From Gracilaria vermiculophylla (lineage: Eukaryota; Rhodophyta; Florideophyceae; Gracilariales; Gracilariaceae), in the NCBI GenBank assembly GCA_019155205.2, contig JAHNZQ020003146.1, positions 1,066,343-1,123,708 on the forward strand: a stretch of 57,366 bases of DNA. Direction: 5' to 3'. How positions within the stretch are numbered: the first letter of the stretch is position 1; each line of letters starts with the position of its first letter. Made by a program: the position numbers and the translations under genes. Positions 2,647 to 36,000 of the stretch are shown one piece after another. The notes under the pieces were generated by a model, which was not told where the DNA came from, did no database searches, and worked only from the letters and a program-made list of their open reading frames with translations.

Positions 2647-3200
2647 TGTGGTACTGTCAGTTCTCCTTTGGAGGTTGTAGAGCACAACGTCCGTTAGGAG
2701 TTTTTGTTGACTACAAAGGGGCGTGTTCCTAGGGGTGGTCTCCGGTATTCGCTGTCGCGAGCCGGGGGAATTCTTAAAGAGGATCCGCAAACACCAAGCG
2801 GAGGGGGAGGTTTACTGGGCAGACAATGCTCCTACAGGCGCTGCTACGAGGCGACCTGGGAATTGGCGGCTTAGAAATTATGGGATGATCGACGCGAGTC
2901 TCCAACCGGAAAAGTAGATGAAGACTCAAGGGAGCTTGGTTTACTTTCTTTATAGGTAGAGCTCGACCGGCAAATTAAGTGTCAAGCCGGGAACCGGCCT
3001 CGGCAGATCTCATTACTGTAGTAACTACCCGCGCAGAGTAACTAAAGTAATTATAATTTCTACCGTCCCTTAGGAATATTGTAGCAAACGCGGGCGGAAT
3101 TATGCACCACTTGGGTCAATTAATAAAATACCAACCCTCCTTAAGAATATCAGGCCATAACGCCCCACCACCATATTTTCTTAGGAGCCACTGTACTACA
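2647..3200 (-). repeat. 3' LTR of element B (family 1)
   Basis: 554 bp. On the minus strand it opens TGTAGTACAGTGG and closes GTACCACA, a near-perfect inverted pair. It lies directly beside the polypurine tract at 3201-3213. Confidence 0.92.
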
Positions 3201-3213
3201 TCCCCCCCTTTCT
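3201..3213 (-). other. Polypurine tract of element B
   Basis: The minus strand reads AGAAAGGGGGGGA immediately upstream of the 3' LTR, the expected place for plus-strand DNA priming. Confidence 0.75.
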
Positions 3214-3289
3214 AAATTGCACCACGTCCTCGAGGTGCATCTTTCAATTCCTTGATCCCCGGGGTGGCTCCTATCGATGTTGATGCAAG

Positions 3290-3825
3290 CTCGGCCTCAG
3301 GCGATGTGACACATTCTCTCCTTCAGGGGTTCGTTCATACTTCCATACTCCTGCGCGGCGTACCACCACGGGCTTGTGTTTTATCCCTTGCGGTATTTGC
3401 AGGCCCTGGCCTTTCCTGACCCGGCTGCATCTCCTTGTTCTTGTCATAACCCGTCGGTGCTGCCGCACCAGTCGGCGGCATGAGCTTTCGCGCACTCAAG
3501 CGTCTCGTGCGCGGCGCAGGCGTAGGATCTCCGTGGCCGAAGCGTGGGTCGGTCCGGATTGGACACTGACTCCCTCAAAGCGCTTGACGCCCAGATTCCT
3601 TCACAGGTTCTCCTCTGGGGAACACCCGATTTATCGGGTCCGTTCGTTCCTTCTCCATGAGGGTGCATCGTCTCATACTCTTCTCGTCTGCACCCCCGTC
3701 GGCCTCCACTGGATATGAACGTACGCCTTGCCACGGTGCCCCATACCTCGCCTACCTGCGGTCGTTTGTTTTCTCTCCGAATTCCACGATAGCCGCTGGA
3801 CGCGGCTCCCTCCCCGGTCAGGCGT
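3290..3825 (+). pseudogene. Upstream segment of the antisense reading frame in element B
   Basis: The plus strand (antisense to gag-pol) holds broken frames that match element D at the protein level. Examples are DSLKALDAQIP followed by GTPDLSGPFVPSP near 3560-3650 (D: DTLKALDAPIP, GTPDSSRPFIASP) and GAPYLAYLRS with RGSLPGQ near 3740-3820 (D: GAPYLACLRS, RGSLPGQ). Element E has a weaker version (RYELDPCYGP) at 35785-36072. Frame changes separate the pieces, so either indels have occurred or this is a separate small antisense ORF ahead of the core frame. The function is unknown. Confidence 0.5.
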
Positions 3826-5802
3826 ATGACCGCGGGCCGCTCACCAAGCTGTGTCAGATTGTTCTCCACAGGTGCTACAACGCGTGCGGTCGCCATTCAT
3901 TTAGCTCCCGACACCTTCGGCATTTCTTCTCCAACTCCCGCGCCTAGGTCTCCATCCAATTTTGAGGTGTATCACAACTCGACTGGTGCACCATTCCGCC
4001 CAGGGAAGCAGTTCGACCATCGTGCCACACGGATCTTCGTTCCATTCCACGACAGGCGCATAAGCCTTCCGTGCCCCGTGGAGGACCACATCCATCACTT
4101 CGGACTGTTCCTCCAAGCGATGCGATTCCGCGCCGTACCGGAGTTTGTGTTGAGCGACCAGAAGTGAAACCGTGTGCACGCCTATCGCGCTCACTGGCTC
4201 CACACTCCGGTGCATGGTGACAACGCTCCAACCTCGGTAGGACACTGCGATACTCCTCATTTGAGGTGCGCCGAGGAACGCGAGGTCCAGGCGTGACTCC
4301 AGGTACTCCTGCACTAGGAGACCTCGCACCAAAGAACGGGGCGACCCGGAACCATTGCTGATGGATGTTCGGCCCTCGCGGTGTTGCCCTTCGATCCCCC
4401 CCACGATCACCTCTACTGGCTCAACCAAAATCGTTGGGGGACGCACCTTGCGGATAAGACCAGAGTACATATCGCCTTCGGGTACTACTATGGTGGGCAT
4501 AACACTGTATTCCACGAGATGCCTCCCAGGCAACGTCTGAAGTACTACCTCAAGGTGAACGACTCTTGAAGGGACCATTGGGTCTCCCCGCACCTCTGCG
4601 TAGCAACACCCGTCATGTTTGCGTACCACACCACAGAGGTTCTAGATCCACATGACTCCCTAGCGCGGTTTGTCATGTTGGTCGCCTCGACGGAGTTCGC
4701 GGTTGGCACCCTTATGGCGTATCTCAAAGCAGCCGACGAAGACGTAACCTCCTATACCCGATGCCGTGACGGCCATCTCTCCCGATACTCTTCGTATCCG
4801 CCGAACGCCGGGTGTTTGCTCCCCTTGTCGGCGTCCATCATACGGGTCCTGCGCTCTTTTGGCATCCAAAACCCAGTTAAGGGCACCACATGGAGTGAGT
4901 CCAAAGCGAAGAGGCTGTTGGATTACAACCTCCAGGTGGCGTGGAATAACACGCGGGGTTTCCTCTGGTACGACTACGGCGAGGACAGGTTCCACCCCAT
5001 TATGAGGAGTCCGAACGGAGACGATGACGGGCGAGCATACCCTGCCTTTCCCCATCTGGCGCCATCTCGGGTTCCTCAGGTGCCACGGCTTCGAGTATCC
5101 AACTACGACCCTTTGATTGAGAGTCTGGCGTTCGATGCACCCCGTCGGTTACCGGTTCCGTCCAAGGATATGGGCGCACCTTCTGAGGTGATAACTCCGC
5201 GGCCTGCCGCAGTGTCGAGTGGTCCCGCAATGGTAGCCGCTATGTCTCCTATGGAAGAGAATGAGATTGCTCCCGTCCTGGTACTTTTGGCCCCAGTGGT
5301 GCAGTTCCGATTGCGGAGCGCCCCTGCGCCTGTTCTTCAGCCTCACCTGCGAAGCGTCCCAGTTCCCGCACCGCCGTCACCTCCGGTGTCATGGACTCCG
5401 TCCTTCGCTCTGCTGACCTTTACGGCGGAGCATCCGGAGTCCCGTCTGGAAGCCCTTGTCCCAGATGGTCCACCGTTCGTGTCTCCTTCCGTGGCTGTTG
5501 TTGCACCCTCAACGGAGGTGGTCGCTTCGGGTACACCGTTGGGCGGACTATCCTCTGGGGCTCTGGGTGCTATATTCCAGGATTTGGTGCAGGCGTGCCT
5601 GGTGACGGGCCGTTCTGCTCCGGCTTTTCCTGTAGAGGCCCTGCGCGAGACGCGTGCCTGAGTCATAGAACTTCGTAAGGCCCGGGCGGATCGAGCCTCG
5701 ATGGCGTCCATCAAGGAAAGCCTGTTGGAGTTCTTCGAGAGCCAAGCGCTCACGGCAAAAGCTCGCCTCGAAGCGGAGTATACGACGCGATTCGTTTACC
5801 TG
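3826..5802 (+). pseudogene. Antisense ORF (aORF) core of element B, unknown protein
   Basis: One reading frame stays in phase over about 1.98 kb opposite to gag-pol. Only in-frame stops break it, at 4165, 4294, 4315, 4567 and 5659. The longest clean stretch is 4615-5661 (348 codons). At 4567 and 5659 sister copies read Trp (TGG to TGA), and at 4294 the sister reads Arg. Conserved blocks in order are: STGAP with VPFHDRR (about 3970-4060), RAHWLH with VHGD (4185-4215), WLNQNRWGTHLAD and YYYGGHNTVFHE (4420-4520), RLKYYLKVNDS, LDPHDSLARF with STEFAVGTLMAYL (4640-4730), a long Pro/Ala/Val-rich tract (5130-5560) and a charged, helical C-terminus with SQALTAKARLEAEY. I see no known domain, signal peptide or membrane segment. 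Transcription would have to start in or near the 3' LTR. Confidence 0.7.
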
Positions 5803-6153
5803 TAGGTGAGAGAACCCTGGTGATGGAATTTAGGTCCCGGAAGCGGCGGAATAAATAGACCCTTCGATTGGAGCGGCGGCTCAGCGAACTGTACGTGCAA
5901 TATGAATGGGCCGTGCCCGCGCGCTCAGCGACACGAAGAGCAGCCACAAGAACGTGCGAAAAGCGAGCAAAGGAGCCCTGGAGGCGAAGAAGAAAACTCC
6001 AGGTGGGAGATAAACAGCGGAGACGAAAAACAACTTCGGTTTAGGGCCGCCTCTCACTTTCCAAAAGGAAAGCGTTTATGTGGAGAGGCGTTTACGCACT
6101 AGATTGGCGTCATAATGCGTAAAAGAGTTCTCCAGGATGTGTTCCGGAGGTTC
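5803..6153 (+). other. Tail between antisense ORF and chromodomain
   Basis: After the in-frame TAG at 5800-5802 the plus strand still resembles element D in a shifted frame (EWAVPARSATRRAA at about 5905-5945, against AVPASSATRSAA in D), with many Arg and Lys codons. This may be the original C-terminus or simply shared DNA. No separate gene is visible. Confidence 0.35.
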
Positions 6154-6632
6154 TTACGTTTCTTCCTTTGAGACGTACCTATTCCAGCGTACACGGTACA
6201 GTATTCTTTTGGGGGTTTGTCGGTGGCAGAAGATATGGGCCACCGCGTAGAGGATATCACCTTCAGGGATCATGATAATGTCTGGAGCCTCCAACAATGG
6301 TTCATCGAGAGGGATGATGAGATTTCCAGTATCCAGCTTTATTGCCATTCCTGAGGTGGTCGGATGAAGAATTTCCGCTTGTAGTCTCTGAGGTGGTGTG
6401 CCGGGAATTCCTGAAGGGCTGGGCATCGGGACTTTCGTCACCCTATAACTTGAGACGACGTCTCCGAGCCCGTTTATCTCACTGGCGACAGTGTCCCTAT
6501 AGGTGCCCAGGACTTTCTAAGGCTCTGAGGAGGTCGGCGCTAGCTCGCGCGTGACGTCCGGTGGTTCGTCGGATGTTTCCCCAGGTTTGACGATAAAAAC
6601 TTTGTCGCCTTCCTTCAGGTGAGGGCCTTTCT
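6130..6632 (-). pseudogene. pol: Integrase C-terminal region and chromodomain of element B
   Basis: An open stretch (6441-6154) reads GDILYAVAHIFCHRQ, then ILYRVRWNRYVSKEET and, past a stop, EPPEHI. This matches the chromodomain pattern of a hydrophobic strand, then V-R-W-x-x-Y, then W/T-E-P-x-x-x-I. It sits at the end of integrase as in chromoviruses, where it is thought to direct insertion to marked chromatin. The segment from 6632 to 6442 holds the decayed GPY/F-type part of integrase (HLKEGDKVF-like) in broken frames. Elements D, E and perhaps H have the equivalent. Confidence 0.75.
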
Positions 6633-7594
6633 TCACCTTCCGATCGAGGTCCTGTTTATATCTCCTCTGCGAGGCGTTGAGTCTCTCTGCTTTGCAAGGG
6701 AGAGTGCGTTCTCATACCGCCCTAGGATGCGGCGTTTTGCTTGCGCCGCCGTGGGTGCCTGTGGCCCATCTGCCGTGTGCACCGTGGCGCGTGCCGCGAT
6801 GACGGCACTTGGCGGAATGCGCGAGAGCACCAGCTTGAAAGAAGCGGTCCCTGTGGAGCGATGCACCTGCAGGTTGTATGTATACGTGAGGCAGCCCACA
6901 TATGCGTCCCAATCCTTCTGGTGGTCCGCCACGTACTGCTTCAGCCTCGAGACGATGGTCTCATTGAATCTCTCCGCTTGTCAGCTGGTCTGGAGTGATA
7001 GGCAATTGTAAACAACGGATTTATCCCCAGAATTCCGGAGACGGCACTGAAGAGCTTTGCCGCAAACTAGGGGCCATTTTCCGTGAAGAGGTACTACGAT
7101 ATCTTACATCGGTAAACCCAGTGCTCCGGAAAGGCATCGGAAATCACTGCTGCAGTGTTGCTCCGGAGGGGGATGGCACGCGTGATCTTCAAGAAACGAT
7201 CAGTGATCACGAGGATAAATCCGTGGCCTCGCCCAGTATTGGGAAGAGGGCCCAAGATATCCATGGCTACGAACTTCAAAGGTCCTAAAAACGGGAACAG
7301 AGTGAGCGGCGTCCGGTGTTTCCGTATAATTCCCCTAGCGGTGGGGCAGGAATAGCAATTCGCTACCGTTTGGATGGAGTTATTGGCCATGTTCGGCCAG
7401 TAGAACTCCCTCCGCATGGTGAAATACATCCGCGATAAACCGGGGTGCCCGGTGAGGCGAAGATATTGCCGGAGATACAGCACCCTCGCCCGTAGTTTCG
7501 TCGGGACAACCTTTTGGAGCGCTTCATCCACGGGGGCGTGGCATACAAGTACGCCGTCCCGGTCAACATCGAATGACGATGTTATACTCCCCAC
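6633..7594 (-). pseudogene. pol: Integrase of element B, zinc-binding and catalytic core
   Basis: 7594-7094 is one 166-codon frame. It holds LRARVLYLRQYLRLTGHPG, REFYWPNMANN and CYSC (the Cys pair of the HHCC finger, with one His poorly kept), then FVAMDILGPLP with the first catalytic Asp and VITDRFLKITRAIPLRS. The second catalytic motif, LTDNGPQF in sister D, reads FTENGP followed by a stop, so Asp is changed to Glu. The Glu of the triad survives in an ERFNETI motif past a frameshift. 6932-6633 is the C-terminal part of the core. This copy cannot make active integrase. Confidence 0.82.
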
Positions 7595-7967
7595 AGTGGG
7601 GAGGCACTCTTTGCAGTACGCATCCGTAATCTGCTCCTTCAGTCACTCCGCTACGGTGATAGGGAGAACTTCTTTCTCCTTTTCAACAAGAGCCATCATC
7701 TCAGGGAGTCCACTGTATTTTCCTCCCGGTTCACAGCATTCCAAACATTCTCCATCGGATCCTTCTTTCCCGTTGGCGTTCTGGATGACCAGAAACGGGA
7801 TGTTGTCCTCCAAGGGTGTTTTATCTTTGCCCTAGGTGGAGATTAGCGAGAACGCATCCGCTTCTTGGTGTTTCATGCCAGGGTGGTGGACGATGTCCAA
7901 CTCGAACTCCAGCAGGTGTAACCTCCACCTCTCCAGGCGACCGGAAGCATCTGTCAAGGACAGTATC
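7595..7967 (-). pseudogene. pol: RNase H end and pol linker of element B
   Basis: The minus strand from 7967 continues RNase H after the insert. It reads LTDASGRLERWRL, then a HHPGMKHQEADAFS motif, the usual end of the Ty3/gypsy RNase H (H-x-x-G-x-x-N-x-x-A-D-x-x-S type, with N replaced). The rest is the linker to integrase. Confidence 0.7.
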
Positions 7968-9029
7968 GGTGGGCGCCATCAAGAGACGGTGACGCAGGGG
8001 GCTAGAAACGTGTAATAATGAAAGCCAAAAGGGTGCTCTTCGTAGCTAGAAGCCCCAAAACAAGTTGAAAACAGTGGGATCAAAGAATTAAACCCACTCG
8101 ATGAAACAAAATATCACTGGGGAGAGCAAGAGGCTCGATTCTCATATAAAACATCTAAACTTCTTGTTGAAACGGCGCGCAACCCAAGAATTATGTCAAG
8201 GATCACTAAGGGTCAGAACCTCGGCTTCCGGTCAGACACTCCGGATGTGAAGTGGATTCTGCAGCCTATCTACCTCTGCACTAACTAGAAGCAGGCGCAT
8301 ACAATCCTTACAGGGCTTCCCGATGAGAGCTACTAACAGCGAGATATGCTTTCACTCTTTATCCAAGTTGGCTCTTTGCAGGAAAGGTTGCACGGCACGT
8401 CGCCTGCGGATAGCTTCCCGTCCAGTACTTCCGTCCGGAAATCACCAGGTCTTTCGACCGACACCGTTATCCGAGCAAAGCTCCGGTGGGGCTCACAGAC
8501 GACAAAAACACCTTAGGTACAAACTATCTGTCTCCCGTCCACGCCTGAGGCGCTTCAACCGGTCTTGGCGACGGTATTTACCCACCGTATTGGACAACTA
8601 GCGGCAAACGCCTCACTAGAAGCCCTTTATCCAGCGGCGAACGCCTCACTGGTTGTTGATGATAGGTGAAGTGGCTGAAGGTTGATAGCGGGTGGGGCTT
8701 AGATGTTAGTCGATTGTTGAGGTGAGTTCAGGGCGAGTTATGAAGCTCAAACCCTCTTTTTATAGTGTCTAGAGGCACTACAAACGGGCCAAATACGCAT
8801 TTCTGCTTGCTAGTTACTCCCGTGTGATTCTAGGTTACTCCATTGGCTTCTAGAGACCTCCAGAGCTGCACACTAACCAATAATAAAGCGAAAATTTGCG
8901 CCAGCATCACGTAAATACTGTAGTCTTTGCTGGGCCAACAAAGCTTGCAGTGTGCTAGACAACACTGGAACATTCTACACGTGTGTTCCAGCAATGTCTG
9001 GCACATTTTGCAACATTCGCGACCGACGA
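7968..9029. mobile_element. Unclassified 1.06-kb insertion in RNase H of element B
   Basis: Comparison with element E shows that RNase H is continuous there (TGGATACTGTC) but is split here, with TATC on both sides (7964-7967 and 9030-9033; 5 bp with one mismatch if GTATC/ATATC). The insert has no convincing protein frame. It contains two copies of a GCGGCRAACGCCTCACT motif (about 8602 and 8634), a TTTTTATAGTG stretch and an 8-bp-stem hairpin (8965-8991). It could be a solo LTR of an unrelated family or a non-autonomous DNA element. The ends show no clear TG...CA. Confidence 0.5.
8965..8991. repeat. Perfect short hairpin in the unclassified insertion
   Basis: CTGGAACA and TGTTCCAG are exact inverted copies with an 11-base loop near the right end of the insertion. 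Confidence 0.6.
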
Positions 9030-10553
9030 TATCCACTTCAGTGGTACGTGGTCCTTCCTCAAGGTGAAGCGCGCGTCTTCCAGGTATGGGCGTGAAAGCA
9101 AAACCGCCCACACGATGGCGAGACACTCGCGCTCCGAAGTGGAATAATTCCGTTCCGTAGGGGTGAGGCTGCGACTCCAATACCCGATGGGTTGAAGTCC
9201 ACCTTCAGGTTGATACTGTAGAAGGGCACATCCGACCTGGTATTTACAGGCGTCAGTGTCCAGCACCATTCCGCCGTGCCACTTCGGAAGTACCAAGATC
9301 GGAGGTTCTATTTGTCTCCTCTTCAGGGTGTCGAAGGCTTCAAACTCTTCATCCGTCAGGAGAGCCAATGGCGTCGGTTTTTCCTTCTCCAGGAGGCGAT
9401 TTAATGGCACCACGATACTGGAGAAATTCGGTACAAACCTCCGGAAGACATTACACAAACCCAGGGAGGAGTGGAGCTCCATCTGATTCGTGGGTGGGTG
9501 ATCTTCCCTGATGGCGTCATGAGTTTTTTTGAAAACCTGTAGGCGGCCCGGGAGCACAACGCGCCTCAGGTAATGCACTAAAGACTTGAAAAAGAAATAT
9601 TTCTCCAGCTTCAAGGTGAGTCCATCATCCTTTAGGAGTCGTAGTACGTCCATCACATGCATGAAGTGCTCATCCAAGCTGCGGGAGTATATGATGACAT
9701 CATCAATATACACCAAGGCGTACTGCCACTTCAACTGTGACAGGATTATTTCCACCGCTCGTTAGAACGTAGCAGGTGCATTCTTCGATCCAAATGGCAT
9801 CCCTGGGAATGTGAAAATGCCACAGTGCGAGGTGAAAGTTGTCTTATCCTTATCAGAGCCGTCCATCTCATTCTGCCAGTAGCCGTTGTTGGCTTCCAGC
9901 GTGGAGAAAACCGATGAAGTACTTAAGGAGTCGATATATGCCTCCATAATGGGTATCGCGTACGAATCGCCTACCGTCACCTCGTTGAGGCGCCTGTTGT
10001 CAATACAGAACCTCAAGGAGCCATCTTTCTTCTTCATAAACGCACTTCGGGAGGCCCATTCGGAATTCGAAGGCTCGATGACGCCCTTCTCCAGCATTCG
10101 GTGGACTTCATCACGTTTGAAATCGCGCGCATTGGGTCCGGCCCTATTGGGAAGTTGATGTACCCGTTTCGCATTAGGTGTGAGGTGGATCCTGTGAATG
10201 GCCAGGCTGACCTGATCCAGGCCACTAGACCACATGTCTTCAAACGTGGAGAGCATATCTACTATTCTATGGCGGTACCATTCGAAATCCTCGCCAACTT
10301 GGAGCATCTCCTGCCAGGTGACATGATTCTCTTTCTCTGGAGCCGTTGAAGTCGCTTCACTCTCCATGGTGGCGAATGAATTGCAGTCCATGAGATCTTC
10401 CACTCGAGGAAAATGAGCCTGTCGTACAGAGGTGGGTAGTGCCAATCCAACGACAGTTTCTTTCTGGAGCCGTAACGGTGACTCCTTCAGGTTGGCGAGC
10501 ACAACCCTGAAGGTAATGTTTGGTACTATTTCCACCACACCATTCGCCATCAT
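9030..10553 (-). pseudogene. pol: Reverse transcriptase and RNase H (first part) of element B
   Basis: Two long frames, 10553-9762 (263 codons) and 9755 downwards, are split by one TAA (9764-9762). At that place sister E reads CAA, giving ATFQRAV. RT motifs in order are EVHRMLEKGVIEPSNSEWAS, KKDGSLRFCIDNRRLNEVT, GIFTFPGMPFGSKNAPATF and the catalytic YIDDVIIYSRS (about 9690-9720), then LGLCNVFRRFVPNFS. RNase H follows (LDTDACKYQVGCALLQ, IGYWSRSLTPTERNYSTSERECLAI) until the foreign insert at 9029. Apart from single lesions the protein is well preserved. It makes the DNA copy from element RNA. Confidence 0.88.
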
Positions 10554-10559
10554 AGAGTG

Positions 10560-13711: not shown

Positions 13712-14266
13712 TGTGGTACTGTCAGTTCTGCTTTCGAGGTAGTAGAGCACAACGTCCGTTAGGAGTTTTGTTGACTTCAAAGGCGCGTTTTTTTAAAGGT
13801 GGCCTCCGGTATTCGTCGTCGCAAGCCCGGGGAATTCTTAAAGGAGATCTGCAAACACTAAGCGGAGGGGGATGCTCACTAGGCGCACAATGCTCCTATA
13901 GGCGCTGTTACGAGGCGACCTGGGGATCTTCGGCTTAAAAATCTTAGGATGATCGACGAGAGTCTCCAACCGGAAAAGTAGATGAAGACTCAAGGGTGCT
14001 TTGTTTGCTTCTCCCAGAGATGGAGCTCGACCGGCAGATTAAGTATCAAGCCAGGAGCCGGCCTCGGCAGATCTCATTACTGTAGTACTTACGTGCACAA
14101 ATTAACTAAAATAAATATAAATTCTACCGTCTCTCTTAATGATACTGTAGCACACGCGGGTCGAATTATGCACAACGTGGCTAAGTTAATAAAATACGAG
14201 ACCCCCTTAAGAATATCACGCCATAAAACCATACCACCATATTTCCTTAGGAGCCACTGTACTACA
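13712..14266 (-). repeat. 5' LTR of element B (family 1)
   Basis: 555 bp with tips TGTAGTAC/GTACCACA. It is flanked outside by ATAAT (14267-14271), identical to the left target copy. It is the partner of 2647-3200. Confidence 0.92.
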
Positions 14267-14271
14267 ATAAT
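14267..14271. other. Target-site duplication of element B, right copy
   Basis: ATAAT, identical to 2642-2646. Confidence 0.85.
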
Positions 14272-14334: not shown

Positions 14335-14891
14335 TGTGGTACTGTCAGTTCGCGTTTCGAGGCAGTAGAGCACAACGTCCGTTAGGTGTTCTTGTTGACT
14401 TCAAAGGTGCGAGTTGCTAAAGGTGGTCTCCGGTATTCGCCGTCGCGAGCCGGGTAAGTTCTTAATGGAGATCCGCAAACACAAAGCGGAGAGTGAGGTT
14501 CACTGGGCGGACAATGCTCCTACAAGCGCTGCTATGATGTGACCTGGAGATCGACGGCTTAGAAACCTAAAGATGCTCGACGAGGGTCTCCAACCGGAAA
14601 AGTAGATGAATACTCACCGGTGCTTGTCTTTACTTCTCCCAGAGGTGGAGCTCAACCGGCAGATTAAGTATCAAGCCGGGGGCCGGCCTCGGCAGATCTC
14701 ATTACTGTCGTAATTAATCGCACAGAGTAACTAAAATAAATATAAAGTCTACCATCTCTCTTAAGGATACTGTAGCACACGCGGGCCGAATTATGCACCA
14801 CGTGGGTCAGTTAATAAAATACAAGCCTTCCTTATGAATATCACGTTCTAAAGCCACACCACCATATTTCCTTAGAAGCCACTGTACTACA
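14335..14891 (-). mobile_element. Solo LTR C (family 1) in the piggyBac-type gene
   Basis: 557 bp, with tips TGTAGTAC...GTACCACA on the minus strand. The flanks are GTCAT (14330-14334) and GTCAG (14892-14896), a 5-bp duplication with one mismatch. There is no internal region. It is the usual product of recombination between two LTRs. Confidence 0.85.
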
Positions 14892-16224: not shown

Positions 16225-16778
16225 TGTAGTACAGTGGCTCCTACGGCAATACGGTGGTTTGGCCTTAATTTATAATATCCCTAAGGAGGGTTCGTAATTT
16301 ATTAGCTGGGCCACGTGGTGCATAATCTTGCCCGCGTGCGCTACAGTATCCTTAAGGTACGGTAGAATTTATTATTTATTTTAGATATTTTATGCACGTA
16401 ACTAGCACAGTAGTGCCACCTGCCGAGGCAGGCTCTCGGCCTGATACTTAAGCTGCCGGTTGAGCTCCACCTCTGGGGAAGTAAAGACAAGCACCCTTGA
16501 GTCTTTTTCTACATTTTCCGGTTGGAGTCTCTTGTCTATTCACGCAGGTTTCTAAGCCGCCCATCCCCAGGTCGCATCATAGCAGCGCGTGTAGGAGCAT
16601 TGTCCGCCCAGTGAACCTCCCTCTCCGCTTGGTGTCTACGGATCCCTTTCAGAATTCCCCCGGCTCGCGGCAGCGGATACCGGAGACCACCTTTAGGAAT
16701 ACGCGCCTTTGGAGTCACCAAAAACTCCTAACGGACGTTGTGCTTTACTATCTCGACAGGAGGGCTGACAGTACCAGA
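16225..16778 (+). repeat. 5' LTR of element D (family 1)
   Basis: 554 bp, TGTAGTACAGTGG to GTACCAGA. The odd last four bases CAGA are shared with element A rather than with its own partner LTR. Confidence 0.9.
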
Positions 16779-16780
16779 AC

Positions 16781-16798
16781 TGGTCTCTTGACTTAGAA
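16781..16798 (+). other. Primer-binding site of element D
   Basis: TGGTCTCTTGACTTAGAA, identical to element A, two bases after the LTR. Confidence 0.65.
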
Positions 16799-16934
16799 GG
16801 TCACAGTTCCTAAAGAACTCGCACAAGTCGCAGCAGAACCGTGTTTCTAGTTTGCAACGACCAACCGCCAACAGTGGAATTCTTCCTTAAAGTGATCCGG
16901 AAGTGGAAGCAAATCACCCCCGACCTACTCCTCT

Positions 16935-18590
16935 ATGCACCCATCAGGACATCCTATGGAAACCCCCCTACAGGATCCTCAAGCAACCAGCTCCGTTGGT
17001 GGGCGCAGCACGTGCAGCGCTCCCCAGGAGATGTCCGCCACAATGGAGGACCCTGAAAGTCTCCTTCGCAATCCTGGCTCCTCTGTGGAGCGTTTCAGGA
17101 ATCGCCTTAGGAGAATGCATGATTGGAGACAAGCGGAATCCTCCGCGACAGCTCTGGAGAACGCCGATGTGGAGCTTGAAGAACCGCACACACCATCGCA
17201 GCCGCCACCTCAGGAGCTGCAGGGACGAAAACACCCGGAGAATAACTCCCTATTGGAATCCCTGGCCCCGCGTCTTACAGATTGGCTCTCACAGGAGCTC
17301 GTCGAAAGAATTCCTGCAGGTGTTGAAGCCCATTTGGGAGCATGCCGCCACGCCCATGTGGAGGACATCGCAACGGAGAGCGCTTACCGTGCTGTGGATG
17401 CTTTGATGGGTTCCGACCCCTTCCTTGAGGTGATCTCAGATGTTATCCGTGCGGAGGTTCGCTCCCAAACCGCACAGCTGCTCCCCGCAGCGGCGCTTCA
17501 AAGTTATTCATCCGTACAGGAGAGGTTCCCTCTATCAACACCTAAGGTGAACCCGGGCAGAGAAGGAACGGATACTGCCACCCTCTACGACAAAGGAGGA
17601 AAGAATACTGCCGTAGGGAAACGTGAGCACCTCAGGAATATTGCTATGCACCGTCTGGACCTGACGCTCCGCGGAGGAGGACAGGATACCGGTCGCGACG
17701 AAGTCCATTTAAGGAGAGAAGGACAGGATACTCCTCCTCGGGTGGATCGCGATATCGGGGGTATCGTCAGCAACCCAGACCGCCTTGAGGAAAGAAGAAC
17801 AAAGAAACGGAGGTAGAAAAGACGCAAGCGAGACACCGATTCGAAGGGAAGCTCAGACTCCGAGTCCGTAAACAGCTCCAGCTCGGAGGACAAAACACCT
17901 CCCAAGGAGAAGAGCAGAAGGGTCAGGAAGTTCGTCCCGCTTAACGACCTCTTCGCCAAAGTGGTGGATTATGACACCTACAGGTTGAATGATCGCTCCA
18001 CACTTTACGACGCGTCTGTCGTTAAATGACTGACGATGATCCAGTGCCACATGAATATTCCAGTGAGAAAGCACTCCTTCTCAGGCGAAGACCCCATCTC
18101 GGTGTTGAATTTTTTTACGCGCTTCCGTTCGGCGTGTAACACCAATGGTGTCCATGAAGGTGCCGCCGTATGGTGCTTTCAGTTTTACCTCACAGGGAAA
18201 GCGCACTCGCTGGTGCAGCCGCGCCTCACAGAAGAGATCACCATTGTGGATGATCCTGGAACAGAGATCTTGACGACGTACCCAGAGCTAGTCAATTTCC
18301 TCCTTGAAAGGTACGCCACGGATGAGTTGATAGCCGATGCTGAGGCTGAGGTCCCTTCTTACAGGCAGAACACCGGAATAACCGAGACGGAGTTCTCACA
18401 GAAGCTCTGGACGAAGGCTCTGCGGTGTGGGAATGTGTACTCCGAACGGCGATTGAAGTCGTTGTTTGTCGAGAAACTCCTTCCCTCGATACACGCGAGG
18501 GTGCGTAATCACCTGACAACGCATCCAAAGACCACCTATACGGAGTTAGCACGTTTAGCGGAATCCTACGGAAATACCCACCGTGCCTAA
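16935..18590 (+). pseudogene. gag: Gag of element D, truncated and with two stops
   Basis: One frame from the ATG at 16935 to the stop at 18588-18590 is broken only by TAG at 17814-17816 and TGA at 18027-18029. It has the N-terminal DPESLLRNPGSS block, the G-x-D-T repeats (about 17560-17730), a basic block, a Ser/Asp-rich run, and the Gag core from SFSGEDPISVLNF (about 18070) through YATDELIADAEAEV, LRCGNVYSERRLKSLFVEKL and RVRNHLTTHPKTTYTEL. It ends shortly after SYGNTHRA at the deletion junction, so the Pro/Ser-rich tail seen in B is missing. It is the best-preserved Gag core in the window. Confidence 0.82.
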
Positions 18591-18596
18591 CCCCTA

Positions 18597-19335
18597 AACC
18601 CCTTCGGAGCACTACGGCAGCAGTGATTGCCGACCCCTTTTGGAGCAATGGGTTTATCCCTACGGGATACCGTTGTACTTCCTTACGGACAATAGACCCC
18701 AGTTCGCGGCGAAAGTCTTCAGCGCCGTTTCCGAAATTTTGGGAATGAAACAGTTGTTTACAACTGCTTATCACCCCCAGACAAACGGCCAGGAGGAACG
18801 CTTCAACAAAACCATCGCTTCGAGGTTGAAGCACTACATCGCGGACCACCAGAAGGATTGGGACGCATATGTGGGACCCCTCACGTATGCATAGAACCTA
18901 CAGGTGCACCGCTCCGCGGGGACTGCTCCTTTCAATATGTTGCTATGGCGAATTCCGCCAAGTGCTGTTATCGCGGTACGCGCCACGGCGCATCCGGCGG
19001 CTGGGCCACAGACGCCAACAGCGGCACAAGCCAAACCCTCCATCCTAAGGCGATATGAGAACGCACTCTCCCTCGCGAAGAAGAGACTCAACGCCACGCA
19101 GAGGAGATAAAAACAGGACTTCGACCAAAATTTTATGGAAGGCACGCACCTGAAGGAAGGCGACGAGGTGTTCCTCGATAAACCCGAGGAGAACTCCGAT
19201 GAACCGCCGGACGTCACGCGGAAGGTAGCGCCGACCACCTCAGGGCCCATCAAAGTCCTGGCCACCTACAGGGATACTGTCGCCATTGAGATGAAAGGGC
19301 TTCGGGATGTCGTCTCCCGTGATAGGCTGACGTAA
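18597..19335 (+). pseudogene. pol: Integrase core (second half) and C-terminal region of element D
   Basis: Begins at the RSTTAAVIAD equivalent just past the deletion. It reads YGIPLYFLTDNRPQFAAKVF (second catalytic Asp intact), ILGMKQLFTTAYHPQTNGQE and ERFNKTI (catalytic Glu intact), then KHYIADHQKDWDAYVG. A TAG at about 18892 and a frame change follow. 19135-19335 carries the C-terminal region (GTHLKEGDEVFLD, then SGPIKVLATYRDTVAIEMK), a GPY/F-like module. The first catalytic Asp and the zinc finger are deleted. Confidence 0.8.
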
Positions 19336-19359
19336 GTCCCAACGCCCAGCCTTCCAGGA

Positions 19360-19692
19360 ATGCCCGCCACCCCACCTAAAGGACACCGCGCGGAGATTTC
19401 TCATTCAAACACCTCAGGCGGGAGGACACCACGGGATACTGTGAACCGCATCACCGCTCTCCGTGAACCAATCCTGGAGGCTTCCGGTGCCATCCTGTCC
19501 CCCGAAGGCGACATCCTTTACGCGGTGGACCATATCGTTTCGCATCGACAAACCCTTGCAGGAGTATTGTACCGCGTCCGCTGGTATGGGTACACCTCGA
19601 AAGACGACACGGAAGATCCTCCAGAACATATCTCGGAGAACTTCCTTAGGCGGTACCACGCCAATCTGGTGCGGAAACGCCTCTCCATATAG
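19360..19692 (+). CDS. Chromodomain segment of element D
   Basis: A clean 110-codon frame holding GDILYAVDHIVSHRQT, GVLYRVRWYGYTSKDDT and EDPPEHISENFLRRYHANLV. This is a full chromodomain of about 55 residues with the aromatic V-R-W-x-G-Y core. It follows integrase with a Pro-rich linker. It is better preserved than in B and E. The frame differs from the integrase part upstream, so it is not joined in this copy. Confidence 0.78.
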   Translation: MPATPPKGHRAEISHSNTSGGRTPRDTVNRITALREPILEASGAILSPEGDILYAVDHIVSHRQTLAGVLYRVRWYGYTSKDDTEDPPEHISENFLRRYHANLVRKRLSI

Positions 19693-19759
19693 GCGCTTCC
19701 GTTTTGGAAAGGGGCAGGGGGCCCCCAAATGGAAATGTATTTCGTCTTCCCCGTCTATC

Positions 19760-21260
19760 CTCCACCTGGAGTTATGTTTTTCGCCTCCAGGATGCTGTGC
19801 TCGCTTTTTCGCATGCTCCTACAGCGGCACTTCGTGTCGCTGAGCTCGCAGGCACGGCCTATGCATGTTTGAACTACCGTTCGTGGAGCTCCTGCTCCAT
19901 CCGAAGGATCTTTTATTGGTCAGGATCCTATCACCTACAGATCACCGAACGGCGTTGAATACTCCGATTCGAGGCGCGCCTTCGCTGTGAGCGCTTGGCT
20001 ATCGAAGAACTCCGACAGGTCTTTTCTTGAGTGCCGCCATCGAGGCTCGGGCTGTCCGGGCCTTATGGAGCTCTACGACCCAAGCACGCGCTGCCCGCAG
20101 AGCCTCCCCAGGAGAAGCCAGAGCAGGACGGCCGGTCATCAGACGAGCCTGCAGCACCTCCTGGAAGGCAGCCTCCAGAGCCTCAGACGAGACTCCTTCC
20201 GACGGTGCACCCGACGCGGCTACCTCTGTTGACGGCGCAACAACCGCCACGGAAGGAGGCGCGGACGGCGGACCAGGTGGGACAGCGGCTCTTCGACGGG
20301 ATGCCACGGGGTCCGCAGTGGAGGTTGGCAATGCCAAAGACGAAGTCGGTGACACCTGAGGTGACGGCGGTGAGGGAACTGGAACGCTCCGTAGGCGAGG
20401 CTGAGGAATAGGCGCAGGGACGCTCCGCAGTCCGGGTTGCACCCCTTGGGCCGAAGACACTGGAATGGGAGCAATCTCGTCCTTTTCCATAGGAGATACG
20501 GCGGCTACCACTGCGGGAGCACTCGGCACTGCGGCGGGCCGCGGAGGTATTACTTCAGGAGGTGCGATCATATCCTGGTACAGAGCTGGAGACCGACAGG
20601 GCGCGCTTATCGCCAGGCTCTCCACCAAGGATTCATAGTCGAGGACTTGTAACAGCCGCATCTGAGATTAGGGATCTGGCGCCACATTAGGAGCGGCCCG
20701 CGGGTATACACCTGTCCGGGGAGGGAGCCGCGTTTTGACGCCATCGTGGAATGCGCGGAGAGGATGGACGACCGAAGACAAGCGAGGTATGGAGCACCAT
20801 GGCGGGGCGCAAGTTCATATCTATAGAAGGCCAAAAGAGGCGCGGACGAGAGGTTTAGGAGACAATTCACCTTTCCGGAGACGCGATGAACGGACGCGAT
20901 GAATCGGGTGTTCCCCGAAGGAGAATCCTCGGAGGAATTGGAGCGTCAAGTGCCTTGAGGGTGTCGTTGTCCGCTCTGGACTGGCCCATGCTCCAGTCAT
21001 GGAGGTCGCGCGTCTGCACCGCGCACGATACGCTGAAGTGTGCTAAAACCCACGCCAACGAAGGGAACGGCAGCACCAACACGTTACGCCAAAACGGAGG
21101 AGACGCAGCCGGGTTAAGGAGGGGCATGGCCAACAAACGCCGACAGGGATAAAACGCGAGCCTGCGGCAATACGCCGCTCAGGAGTATGGAGAAATGGAG
21201 GAACTGCCAAAAGAGAGATCAGGCAAACCGCCGGAGGTCGCACTTGCCTCAACACCCGTA
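19760..21260 (-). pseudogene. Antisense ORF of element D, core deleted
   Basis: 20661-19999 is a 220-codon clean frame opposite to gag-pol, matching the C-terminal half of the B antisense ORF: ESLVESLAISAP, SVAVVAPSTEVAASGAP, LEAAFQEVLQARLMTGRPA and ARAWVVELHKART. Pro, Ala, Ser and Val make up most of it. A one-base shift then gives SQALTAKARLESEY. 20870-20607 and 21136-20867 match the upstream segment of B in other frames. The middle, with the VPFHDRR and STEFAVGTL blocks, is absent, so the protein lacks its most conserved part. Confidence 0.65.
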
Positions 21261-21318
21261 GGAGCCACCCCGGGGATCAAGGAATAGGAAGATGCACCTC
21301 GACGATGTGATGAAATTT

Positions 21319-21331
21319 AGGAAAGCGGGTA
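21319..21331 (+). other. Polypurine tract of element D
   Basis: AGGAAAGCGGGTA directly before the 3' LTR. It is purine-rich with one C and two T. Confidence 0.6.
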
Positions 21332-21883
21332 TGTAGTACAGTGGCTCCTACAGAATTAGGGTGGTTCGGCCATAAGGTATAATATTCCTAAGGAGGGCTC
21401 TTATTTTATTAGCTGTGCTACGTGGTGCATAATCTTGCCCGCGTGCGCTACAGTATCCTTAAGGTACGGTAGAATTATTATTTATTTTAGATATTTTATG
21501 CACGTAATTAGCACAGTAGTGCGACCTGCCGAGGCGGGCTCCTGGCCTGATATTTAAGCTGCCGGTTGAGCTCCACCTCTGGGGAAGTAAAGACAAGCAC
21601 CCTTGAGTCTTCATCTACTTTTCCGGTTGGAGTCTCTTGTCGATCAACGCAGGTTTCTGAGCCGCTGATCCCCAGGTCGCATCTTAGCAGCGCCTGTAGG
21701 AGCATTGTCCGCCCAGTGAACCTCCCCCTCCGCTTGGTGTTTGCGGATCCCTTTCAGAATTACCTCGACTCGCGACAGCGGATACTGGAGACCACGTTTA
21801 GGAATGCGCGCCTTTGGAGTCAACCAAAACTCCAAACGGACGTTGTGCCTTACTACCATGACAGGAGGGCTGACAGTACCGCA
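21332..21883 (+). repeat. 3' LTR of element D (family 1)
   Basis: 552 bp, TGTAGTACAGTGG to GTACCGCA. By eye it is only about 91% identical to the 5' LTR of the same element, while that LTR is about 96% identical to the one in element A. Confidence 0.9.
21551..21558 (+). promoter_or_regulatory. TATA-like motif in family-1 LTR
   Basis: TATTTAAG occurs in the middle of the LTR at the same relative place in A, B, C, D and E with small changes. It is a candidate core promoter, by sequence only. Confidence 0.3.
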
Positions 21884-33059: not shown

Positions 33060-36000
33060 TGTCATAAGCTCCGGCGCCCGCTAGTTTTACCGCTGGGCGC
33101 TCGGACACGGCCAACTAGTAAAACAATCTCTGAGCGGGGAGCCACTGATCCACCTGAAGGGTATTTTTTTCTGTCGTCATGTAGAATAACTACCATCGCG
33201 GGGTTCTCAACGCCTTAAAGTTCCGAAATCGCGTCGCATACTGCACATGCAGGAGAGCCTTTGCTGCTAGAGCCTGGCTCTCAGTGAACGCCTTCAAGCT
33301 CTTCTTGATAAATCCATTGAGGCTTGGTCTAACCGTGCCCTATGAATTTCTACGACCCTTTTTTGAGCCTCGCGTAGGGCTTCTTAATAAGAAGCCGGCG
33401 CAGAGCAGACCTTAACCAGGAAATCCTGCGCCAAATCCTTAACGGCAGTACAAAGCACCCCTGAGAATGAAATCTCCCAGGACATGCCAGAAGCCACAAT
33501 TTCTGGCGACGGAATACAAGTCGCCATAGAAAACGTCGCGGTAGGCAGACTAGCTGGAACGGTTGCTTTCCGAGCGGATTCTGCAGACACTGCCGCAGAG
33601 TACGGCAGAGTTAAGACCGGAGCAGCCGGCACCAAAGATGACGGCGTCATAGCAGCCGGGACGCTTCTAAAGCGAGGAATGATAACCATAATTGGGACGT
33701 TCCTCAAAAAGGGTTACACCACCGGGGCCGAAACAGTCGGGACGAGAGTTATCTCGTACATTTGTATAAAAGTCACACTGACCACGGCCACGGGAGGATC
33801 CGCCATCGATGCTGGAGGGCAGGCTACTACCTCGGCGGGTGCAGCCTTGTCCTGCGACCGAACCGGTCACAGAAGTTGCATACGGATCGTCCGACTCCCA
33901 ACCACATGAACATAGTCAAAGATACGCGGCAGCCGCACTTGAGCAACCACAGAAACTATAAGGTGGGGAAAGGCTGCCAGACTCCCCCGTCATCGTCTCT
34001 TTATGAGCTTATTACAATAGAGTGAACCTTGTTTTCGGCGTACTCGTACCTAAAGAAACACGGCGTATCGTTTCATACTATCCAAAAAATGTAGTCCAGC
34101 AGTTTCTCCTACTCAAATTCACTCCATGCGGTGGCCTTACAGACGAACGGAATCCCTAAAGAGCGGAGGACCTTGATAAGTGTCACCGACGAGGGGAGCA
34201 AGAGTCCGGTGGTTGGCTGATACGAGAAACCACAACATAGGCGACCGTTGCGATACCGAGTATAGGAAGTGACGCCCTCGTCCGTCTCTTTGACACAAGC
34301 CACTAGAGTGCAAATGGCATATTCTGTCGACGAGATCAGCATGATAAACCGTCCTAAGGAGTTCTGTGGATCCAAAATCTCTGGGGCATGGTACGCGCAC
34401 GTGATTGGCGCCGCCATAAAGAGATGCATGGAGACCCAATTGGCCCTCCAGGAGTCGTTTATCTTGAGTTAATACTTCAGAGGCTGCCAGGAAGTTTTGT
34501 TCTGCAACTCTGTGTTGTGCCAGCCATAGCAGTATACGAAGGCCTTCCGCTTTCGGGTTTCATCCGCAAGGTGCGTCCGCCATCTGTTTCGATTCAGCCA
34601 TTAGAGTCGATTTTAAGGGAGATCGAACGGCAGTAACACAAGGACGGAGCGTACATTATGGATGGTGTCAAGACGCTTCACTTATTGGAGGTCAGAGGGG
34701 CAAGAGAAGGTTGGAGAGATATTCAGAATGTTCGCCAGCTCTAACTTGGATTTACTTGGAGGTGCCTCGACCACGACTTATATAGTGGTTCAGTCGCACC
34801 GACTAGGTTGCATCAGAAATTACACTACAAAGGCGAGACACTCAATACTACCAATCATATTGTAACGTAACATAAATGTACTAGCCACAATTCAATAATG
34901 CTTACAACAGCAAGGCACAACAAGGCATGACAGTTCCGTACACTCACGAGACCATGACAATGCACAAATTCACTCAACCACCTTACACTCTCTGTATTCC
35001 GCCACCACTCGTGTCCATACAGCAATGTGTGTGTATAGTTACCATGACGAGGCACATTACACTAAACCATATCCGGTGTACATTAAGCTGAGTTTGCAAT
35101 GTGTACACCTGGAAACGATATGGTAGTGAACAACGTGCCCAGTAGCACACCTGCACACGTGTAACAGACAGAGTCAACATTCAACGCAGCCCATGGTCCC
35201 CGGAACATTTAGTTGTCAGTGACAGCACAGGCACTTCATCCAACATCACTCGCTGGTGAGTGCTTTCCATGTGCAGGAAGAGCAAGAGTCGAGACTGAAT
35301 CTCGCACTCTTCGTTGCCCTTGAGGTAAGTCGTGTCGCAGAGTCTCACCAGGGTCGGAGCACTGTCACCATGCACTAGGATATGGAGCCAGTGAGCACGG
35401 AAGGCCTCCACTCGATTCCCGTTTTCGCCGTCCTAAGCGACCTCCGATACGGGGTGGAATCGCAACGCCTGAAAGTAGGATCCAAAATAATCAATATAAT
35501 CCTTTATCGCACAAGGGAGACTGACGCGTCTGTCATGGAAGGGCACACATACCCAAGTAGCACGAGGTTCGAAGTGATCCCCGGGGCAGAGCGGTGCACC
35601 GGTTGAGGTGTGATACATCTCAGGATCAGACGGAGGAGAAGGAGCCTGGGCCGAAGACATCATTTAAAAGGTGTATGAAGTGGGAAGAACGGAGACCGAG
35701 TGTGTAGTAGCACCAGAGGAGATGGACCGGACACCACTGGAAGAGAGACTCTACATCATGTACACGTCACAGGAGAGAACCATGTCACGACGTCATAAAG
35801 AAATACGCGAAGAGGGCGGACAAAGAAAGGAATTGTGGTAAATGAGGACCATAGCAGGGATCGAGTTCATAGCGAACGGGGAACAGTGACAGGACACGAA
35901 GAAAAAGTATGAGTGGAGATGTTTCCCATGAAGATTGACGATCGAACCTTACGACTCGGGCGATGACCGACAATGAAACTTGAAAAAATCGGATTATTTT

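Follow-up and report, generated by a model that had tools for sequence, protein, structure and literature searches.

An antisense gene under purifying selection between pol and the 3' long terminal repeat of a chromovirus

Retand elements, plant Ty3/gypsy retrotransposons of the Tat type, carry antisense open reading frames (ORFs) with a TRP28 domain (PF04195) in 97% of recently active element clusters; the role of the protein is left open and DNA binding is suggested (PMC11963269, as far as the available excerpts of this and the other cited papers go). The antisense gene of Grande is reported to be transcribed from a promoter of its own upstream and to yield a nuclear protein (PMC7264820). 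Outside flowering plants, the Ty3/gypsy element Boty of Botrytis cinerea has an extra antisense gene, brtn (PMC7264820, PMC8365987), and HBZ of human T-cell leukaemia virus type 1 (HTLV-1), like other retroviral antisense genes, yields a protein from antisense RNA started at the 3' long terminal repeat (LTR) (PMC7264820, PMC11963269). The stretch of DNA analysed here (the window; 57,366 bp, C8:1066343-1123708, in a 44.8-Mb genome of 27 contigs) contains element B, a chromovirus on the minus strand with a long protein frame on the plus strand, opposite gag-pol and between its chromodomain and 3' LTR.

This antisense frame, described by a first-pass annotation made from the letters alone, exists as reported, with five internal stops (4165, 4294, 4315, 4567 and 5659) in the window copy. 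The frame belongs to a real gene, some 627 codons long, whose start equivalent is at 3922 and whose stop is at 5803 (3922-5805, plus strand, 627 codons and stop; start ATT in this copy). By analogy with the systems above, it is likely to be a third gene of the element, whose accessory protein, some 627 residues long, would be made from an antisense RNA arising near the 3' LTR.

Codon-phase signature of the antisense frame

Selection was tested in the best 40 of 556 genome candidates matching the antisense region of the window, the window copy being one of the 40. Alleles present in a single copy were taken as mostly post-insertion changes and alleles in many copies as transmitted ones, a split that was used because pooled ratios blend dead copies with living lineages. 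For shared alleles, the codon positions within the same copies are their own internal control. Over 3922-5802, alleles in at least five copies fell at codon positions 1/2/3 in the proportion 46/26/185 (P = 1e-38) and the ratio of nonsynonymous to synonymous polymorphism (pN/pS) was 0.12. Singletons were distributed 513/485/435, slightly fewer at third positions (P = 0.038), with a pN/pS of 1.15. In the sense-strand integrase of the same copies, taken as a control, pN/pS fell from 1.10 (singletons) through 0.51 (two to four copies) to 0.13 (at least five). The antisense frame has been under purifying selection in lineages that went on transposing, with a strength like that on integrase, and copy-private changes look neutral, reflecting decay after insertion. 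The third-position share was stable (0.72 to 0.78) in five random subsets of 20 of the 40 copies. The first-pass annotation had proposed a real antisense protein gene, to be given up if codon patterns fitted only the gag-pol strand or neutrality; this was tested and no such pattern occurred, the signature of selection matching the antisense frame rather than the sense strand.

An open frame could in principle arise by chance or composition on a GC-rich antisense strand and never code. The region has 58% guanine plus cytosine, which makes stops fewer, and the window copy has its five stops. However, base composition predicts 776.6 stops among the 25,973 codons of the 40 copies, whereas the antisense frame has 152, and 712 and 710 occur in the two other plus-strand frames. 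Shared-allele pN/pS was 1.63 and 2.32 in those two frames versus 0.12 in the antisense frame. The codon-position pattern of shared alleles rejects a chance frame, to which we give practically no probability.

The antisense signal might instead be the shadow of a selected frame on the sense strand, either env-like or an extension of pol. The sense frame with the same wobble position indeed has a low shared-allele pN/pS (0.22; for alleles in at least five copies the remaining frames gave 1.48 to 2.81). Its pooled pairwise dN/dS, the ratio of nonsynonymous to synonymous substitution rates, was 0.49, compared with 0.40 for the antisense frame and 0.96 to 1.24 for the other four. That frame, however, has the most stops of the six (849), and its ratio is weaker than the 0.12 of the antisense frame. 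Stops in the five other frames ranged from 472 to 849, with 472, 607 and 849 on the sense strand; these last counts reject a coding frame on that strand and leave a shadow a negligible prospect.

The signal is also confined in position. A sliding profile revealed antisense phase from about 3880 to about 5800 and none that was consistent at 3040-3880 or 5800-6160. Sense phase resumed in pol from about 6400 and was present across integrase (7000-7955); the phase shifted twice between 6400 and 7960, which fits the frameshifts that the first-pass annotation had seen in pol. No codon phase was detected in the leader at 3205-3714 (57/47/45 for alleles in at least five copies, P = 0.44), at 3715-3921 (11/13/19, P = 0.3) or in the spacer at 5806-6150 (15/16/22, P = 0.44).

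These non-coding flanks bear on the proposal that the antisense RNA itself matters, as double-stranded RNA or as a long non-coding regulator, and not a protein. Such roles have been discussed for antisense ORFs (aORFs) in the excerpted text of PMC7264820. An RNA-only function leaves the synonymous freedom and the amino-acid constraint unexplained, and third positions are as variable as the leader, the rate of shared alleles being equal (185 in 627 third positions, 149 in 510 bp of leader). RNA as the sole function is rejected by the codon pattern and is very unlikely, while an RNA role on top of that of the protein is possible.

Stops in the antisense frame of the 40 copies occurred at 75 codon sites, 42 of them with a stop private to one copy, and the maximum at any site was seven of 40 copies. 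Stops are thus mostly private or rare, bearing out the suggestion that they are late changes. The sister codons cited in its support were recovered too: TGG at 4567 in 26 of 40 copies and at 5659 in 28, and CGA at 4294 in 31. An absence of frameshifts in the window copy had been the original argument for coding. Copies L011, L030 and L044 align without gaps to 3700-5900, so that the window copy has no private frameshift and the conclusion holds, but the argument itself is weak in one copy and shared variation is the better test. Gaps in the 40 copy alignments numbered 342, nearly all of 1 to 2 bp, a BLAST count inflated by neighbouring compensating pairs.

Some stops recur in four to seven of the 40 copies, at 4294, 4315, 4342, 4435, 4495, 4567, 4726, 4783, 4891, 4966, 5659 and 5692. 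At 10 of these 12 sites the codon is otherwise mostly CGA or TGG. Recurrent stops may reflect either repeated C>T or G>A mutation or small subfamilies mobilised despite the stop.

Extent of the gene and its predicted protein

At the start equivalent (3922), ATG is present in 35 of 39 copies, and the terminal stop at 5803 is kept in 34 of 39. The ATG at 3826, at which the first-pass annotation began the frame, is private (two of 38 copies), the edge of the coding signal being at 3922, and a boundary at 3290 was not borne out. ATGs further upstream, at 3715 and 3733, are each found in 32 of 38 copies, and in-frame stops upstream of the gene lie at 3658 (33 of 37 copies) and 3676 (29 of 38). Since 3715-3921 has no codon phase, the start is probably at 3922, which gives 627 codons; a longer N-terminus is less likely. 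Stop-free natural frames exist in L039 (708 codons) and L022 (723 codons), the end of the latter departing from the family frame. Among the 63 places scored out of 1,124 candidates, four were stop-free within the match, two of which span nearly the whole query.

Constraint is not even along the gene. It is strongest in the N-terminal region (3922-5050, plus strand; 376 codons), where shared alleles comprised 137 synonymous and 24 nonsynonymous changes (pN/pS 0.05). A weakly constrained, Pro/Ala-rich linker follows (5051-5560, plus strand), delimited by its phase counts and by the composition of the natural copy L039. The C-terminal segment (5561-5802, plus strand) has phase counts of 7/2/21 (P = 6e-5) and a shared-allele pN/pS of 0.17, with helices predicted at 10-residue mean pLDDT (predicted local distance difference test) values of 52 to 83. 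The predicted protein has three parts, beginning with about 376 residues under constraint and continuing through a loose Pro/Ala linker to helices at the C-terminus. In the AlphaFold2 model of the whole protein, pLDDT reached 70 or more over longer stretches only in N-terminal strands (about residues 11 to 50), a helix at about 246 to 272 and the C-terminal helices. The comparison with Foldseek that the first-pass annotation had proposed was run with the better model against PDB and found nothing (best E 3.8).

Sequence searches gave a single relative. Pfam returned no family at E ≤ 1 for the antisense protein and nine chance-level families over 72 protein segments (best E 0.016), and PDB searched by sequence gave no match in one search and a single match at E 2.1 in another. 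A single-sequence search of 5.8 billion proteins scored 7,992 candidates and yielded nothing at E ≤ 0.01. A profile search of the same number (7,997 candidates scored) retrieved one relative, P0002, of 241 aa (E 5e-34, 47% identity over 24% of the query), whose longest contig has 2,356 bases. Since P0002 is only 35 to 65% identical to genome copies (best 150 of 354 candidates, none listed above 65%), its source is most likely a different genome, and the gene family extends beyond this one. In viral contigs searched with P0001, P0002 and one relative of the reverse transcriptase, no relative was confirmed by tblastn.

It is unlikely that the antisense gene is a host gene or encodes an envelope. 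An envelope-like ORF was rejected on its antisense orientation and on hydropathy, the best 19-residue value being a borderline 1.92 in one copy.

Transcription of the antisense RNA would begin within the 3' LTR or next to it, cross the 0.7-kb non-coding leader between the 3' LTR and the gene (3201-3921, plus strand; a candidate antisense promoter or 5' untranslated region, without codon phase) and end before the chromodomain. Its product may help the replication or regulation of the element, by nuclear entry or targeting, by control of sense transcription or by countering host silencing, along the lines proposed for the antisense proteins of Retand and Grande. A silencing suppressor or anti-host-defence protein, in place of a replication or targeting factor, would be selected when transmitted and decay neutrally after insertion, as observed and with nothing contrary, but this pattern fits any helper protein and neither motif nor fold points to such a function. 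It is an unlikely, though not far-fetched, specific form of the accessory protein.

Element B, its relatives and the place of the gene

Element B runs from its 5' LTR (13712-14266, minus strand; BLAST and motif scan) to its 3' LTR (2647-3200, minus strand; 554 bp, with TG...CA ends), the two LTRs being 85% identical by BLAST. Its flanks, as read, hold a 5-bp target-site duplication, ATAAT, at 2642-2646 and again at 14267-14271. A purine-rich stretch adjoining the 3' LTR (3201-3213, minus strand; TCCCCCCCTTTCT on the plus strand) is a probable polypurine tract. Pieces of reverse transcriptase and RNase H (8958-10559, minus strand; PF00078, PF17919 and PF17917) and the integrase zinc-binding region (7097-7642, minus strand; PF17921, Pfam E 8e-11) lie in Ty3/gypsy order along the minus strand. 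The integrase catalytic core gave no match in the pol pieces scanned, the scan covering part of that region. The pol end carries a damaged chromodomain (6157-6516, minus strand; Pfam Chromo E 0.06, under the cut-off), separated from the antisense stop by a non-coding spacer without codon phase (5806-6150). In a sister element, the chromodomain (19336-19689) exceeds the Pfam cut-off (E 1.7e-6, 28.3 bits versus 25.1). Element B is a chromovirus of the Ty3/gypsy group, with paired LTRs and a target-site duplication, the pol signatures and, via the sister element, the chromodomain. Its reverse transcriptase has 51 relatives, of which one, sharing 52% identity across 68% of the query, is named Agarophyton chilense, a red alga. 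The genome also has light-harvesting genes, with 10 matches, some of which are parts of a single gene; for the one examined, the best PDB match is 7y5e, a PBS-PSII-PSI-LHC megacomplex from a red alga. The host is accordingly probably a red alga.

Other members of the family are present in the window. A second element (16225-21880, plus strand), with LTR matches at 16225-16776 and 21332-21880, retains part of the antisense gene on the minus strand (19999-20667), with 66% identity to L039 over the aligned portion. Two diverged, stop-free pieces of the antisense gene, of 119 and 109 aa (53% and 43% identical to L039), lie at 33384-34559 (minus strand); the best other genome match of the 119-aa piece is 62% identical (best 150 of 373 candidates scored). 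These old pieces point to a subfamily that is either older or separate. At about 7960-8950, roughly 1 kb inside pol of element B, the alignment of the 40 copies drops to none, and this segment is probably a nested insertion. An LTR of the same family at 14335-14891, immediately adjacent to element B's own 5' LTR, has flanks that are alike but not identical (..GTCAT and GTCAG..) and is probably a solo LTR.

The association of the gene with the element was followed from integrase, whose DNA was searched against the genome (best 40 of 482 candidates). Among the matches listed, and compared by eye, at least 20 of these 40 places had a match to the antisense gene at the spacing expected within the element. 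Four of the other 20 were checked over 2.3 kb each and all had parts of the antisense gene: the last 50 residues in L051, the last 107 in L053 and both ends in L052 and L054, with masked N in two of the four. At least part of the gene was present in all 24 integrase-chosen places examined of the 40. The deletions within the gene in L051 and L054 could fit a trans-acting product, or post-insertion decay. As an open frame opposite gag-pol, lying between pol and the 3' LTR and kept in most copies, the antisense gene is an aORF-3R.

A gene of another mobile element or of the host might have been inserted in a chromovirus ancestor and selected for the sake of that other element. The protein has no Pfam relation to gag or pol, and the source of such ORFs is obscure in the literature too, according to the excerpts of PMC11963269. 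However, no flanking terminal repeats were found (one poor 20-nt inverted pair occurs inside 3201-6160), and about 34 to 37 of the 40 copies align on each flank on average, with about 30 just past the stop. No free-standing copy occurred among the matches listed, where element copies are crowding and for which no dedicated search was made. A foreign gene selected for another element is therefore improbable, and a gene belonging to element B remains the favoured reading.

Several points weigh against that reading. The 40 copies were picked by likeness to the antisense region and so over-represent copies that keep the gene, and as they are kin, shared alleles are not independent events. Constraint is weak for alleles in two to four copies (367/311/400 over 3922-5802; pN/pS 0.68), and the linker alone lacks significant phase (22/15/29, P = 0.11). 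The four later-checked elements hold only parts of the gene within 2.3 kb, and internally deleted copies may be common. Both AlphaFold2 models are of poor quality, with a mean pLDDT of 47.4 for the full-length protein and 35.6 for the N-terminal part alone. The accessory role rests on analogy, because neither a family nor a fold nor a solved relative was found.

Comparison with known antisense genes

Chromoviruses have already been reported from red algae (PMC3605345, in excerpt). In the open-licence literature, searched at the level of listings and opening abstract lines, no antisense gene was found described for a chromovirus or a red-algal element, and passages of PMC5408684 and PMC9289625 mention none in a chromovirus; this does not prove priority. 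What is new here is the type of element, with its chromodomain, the host group, probably red algae, the protein, and codon-level evidence of selection as strong as that on integrase.

The likeness to antisense ORFs of plant Ty3/gypsy elements, pointed out in the first-pass annotation, holds. As in Retand, the antisense gene lies between pol and the 3' LTR. Retand elements, in contrast, are non-chromoviruses of flowering plants with a region of 2.9 to 6.6 kb between pol and the 3' LTR, according to the excerpted descriptions, whereas element B has a chromodomain and probably a red-algal host. No segment of the antisense protein (0 of 72) matched PF04195 at E ≤ 1. Membership of Retand was rejected, as the TRP28 domain is missing and a chromodomain is present in place of a non-chromovirus lineage. 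Genome searches say nothing about absence here, since TRP28 gave no match in this genome or in 14 control genomes and Zn_clus none in any control genome.

Gene23 of Grande and the antisense ORFs of RIRE2, in maize and rice, are also placed between pol and the 3' LTR, but differ in host and element lineage, and brtn of Boty is alike in placement but comes from a fungal host. In these cases the likeness is one of description, as given in the excerpted sources, and not of sequence. HBZ is a bZIP protein. No bZIP match was found by Pfam in the antisense protein or its segments, and in this it differs from HBZ; no homology is claimed.

Red-algal chromoviruses may perhaps carry their own family of antisense proteins behind pol, as indispensable to transposition as integrase, a generalization that we hold tentatively and somewhat below even odds. 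Earlier papers, as excerpted, argue the importance of antisense ORFs from presence and conservation. The 40 decayed copies allow neutral change after insertion to be told from selection during transmission, and with integrase-like constraint the function of such antisense genes becomes a testable question. The locus places an antisense gene, for a protein without a known family, in an element that has a chromodomain and whose host is probably neither a flowering plant nor a fungus. If red-algal chromoviruses do carry such a family, then together with those of Retand, Boty and HTLV, antisense accessory genes would be a repeatedly invented helper, expressed from a separately timed transcript.
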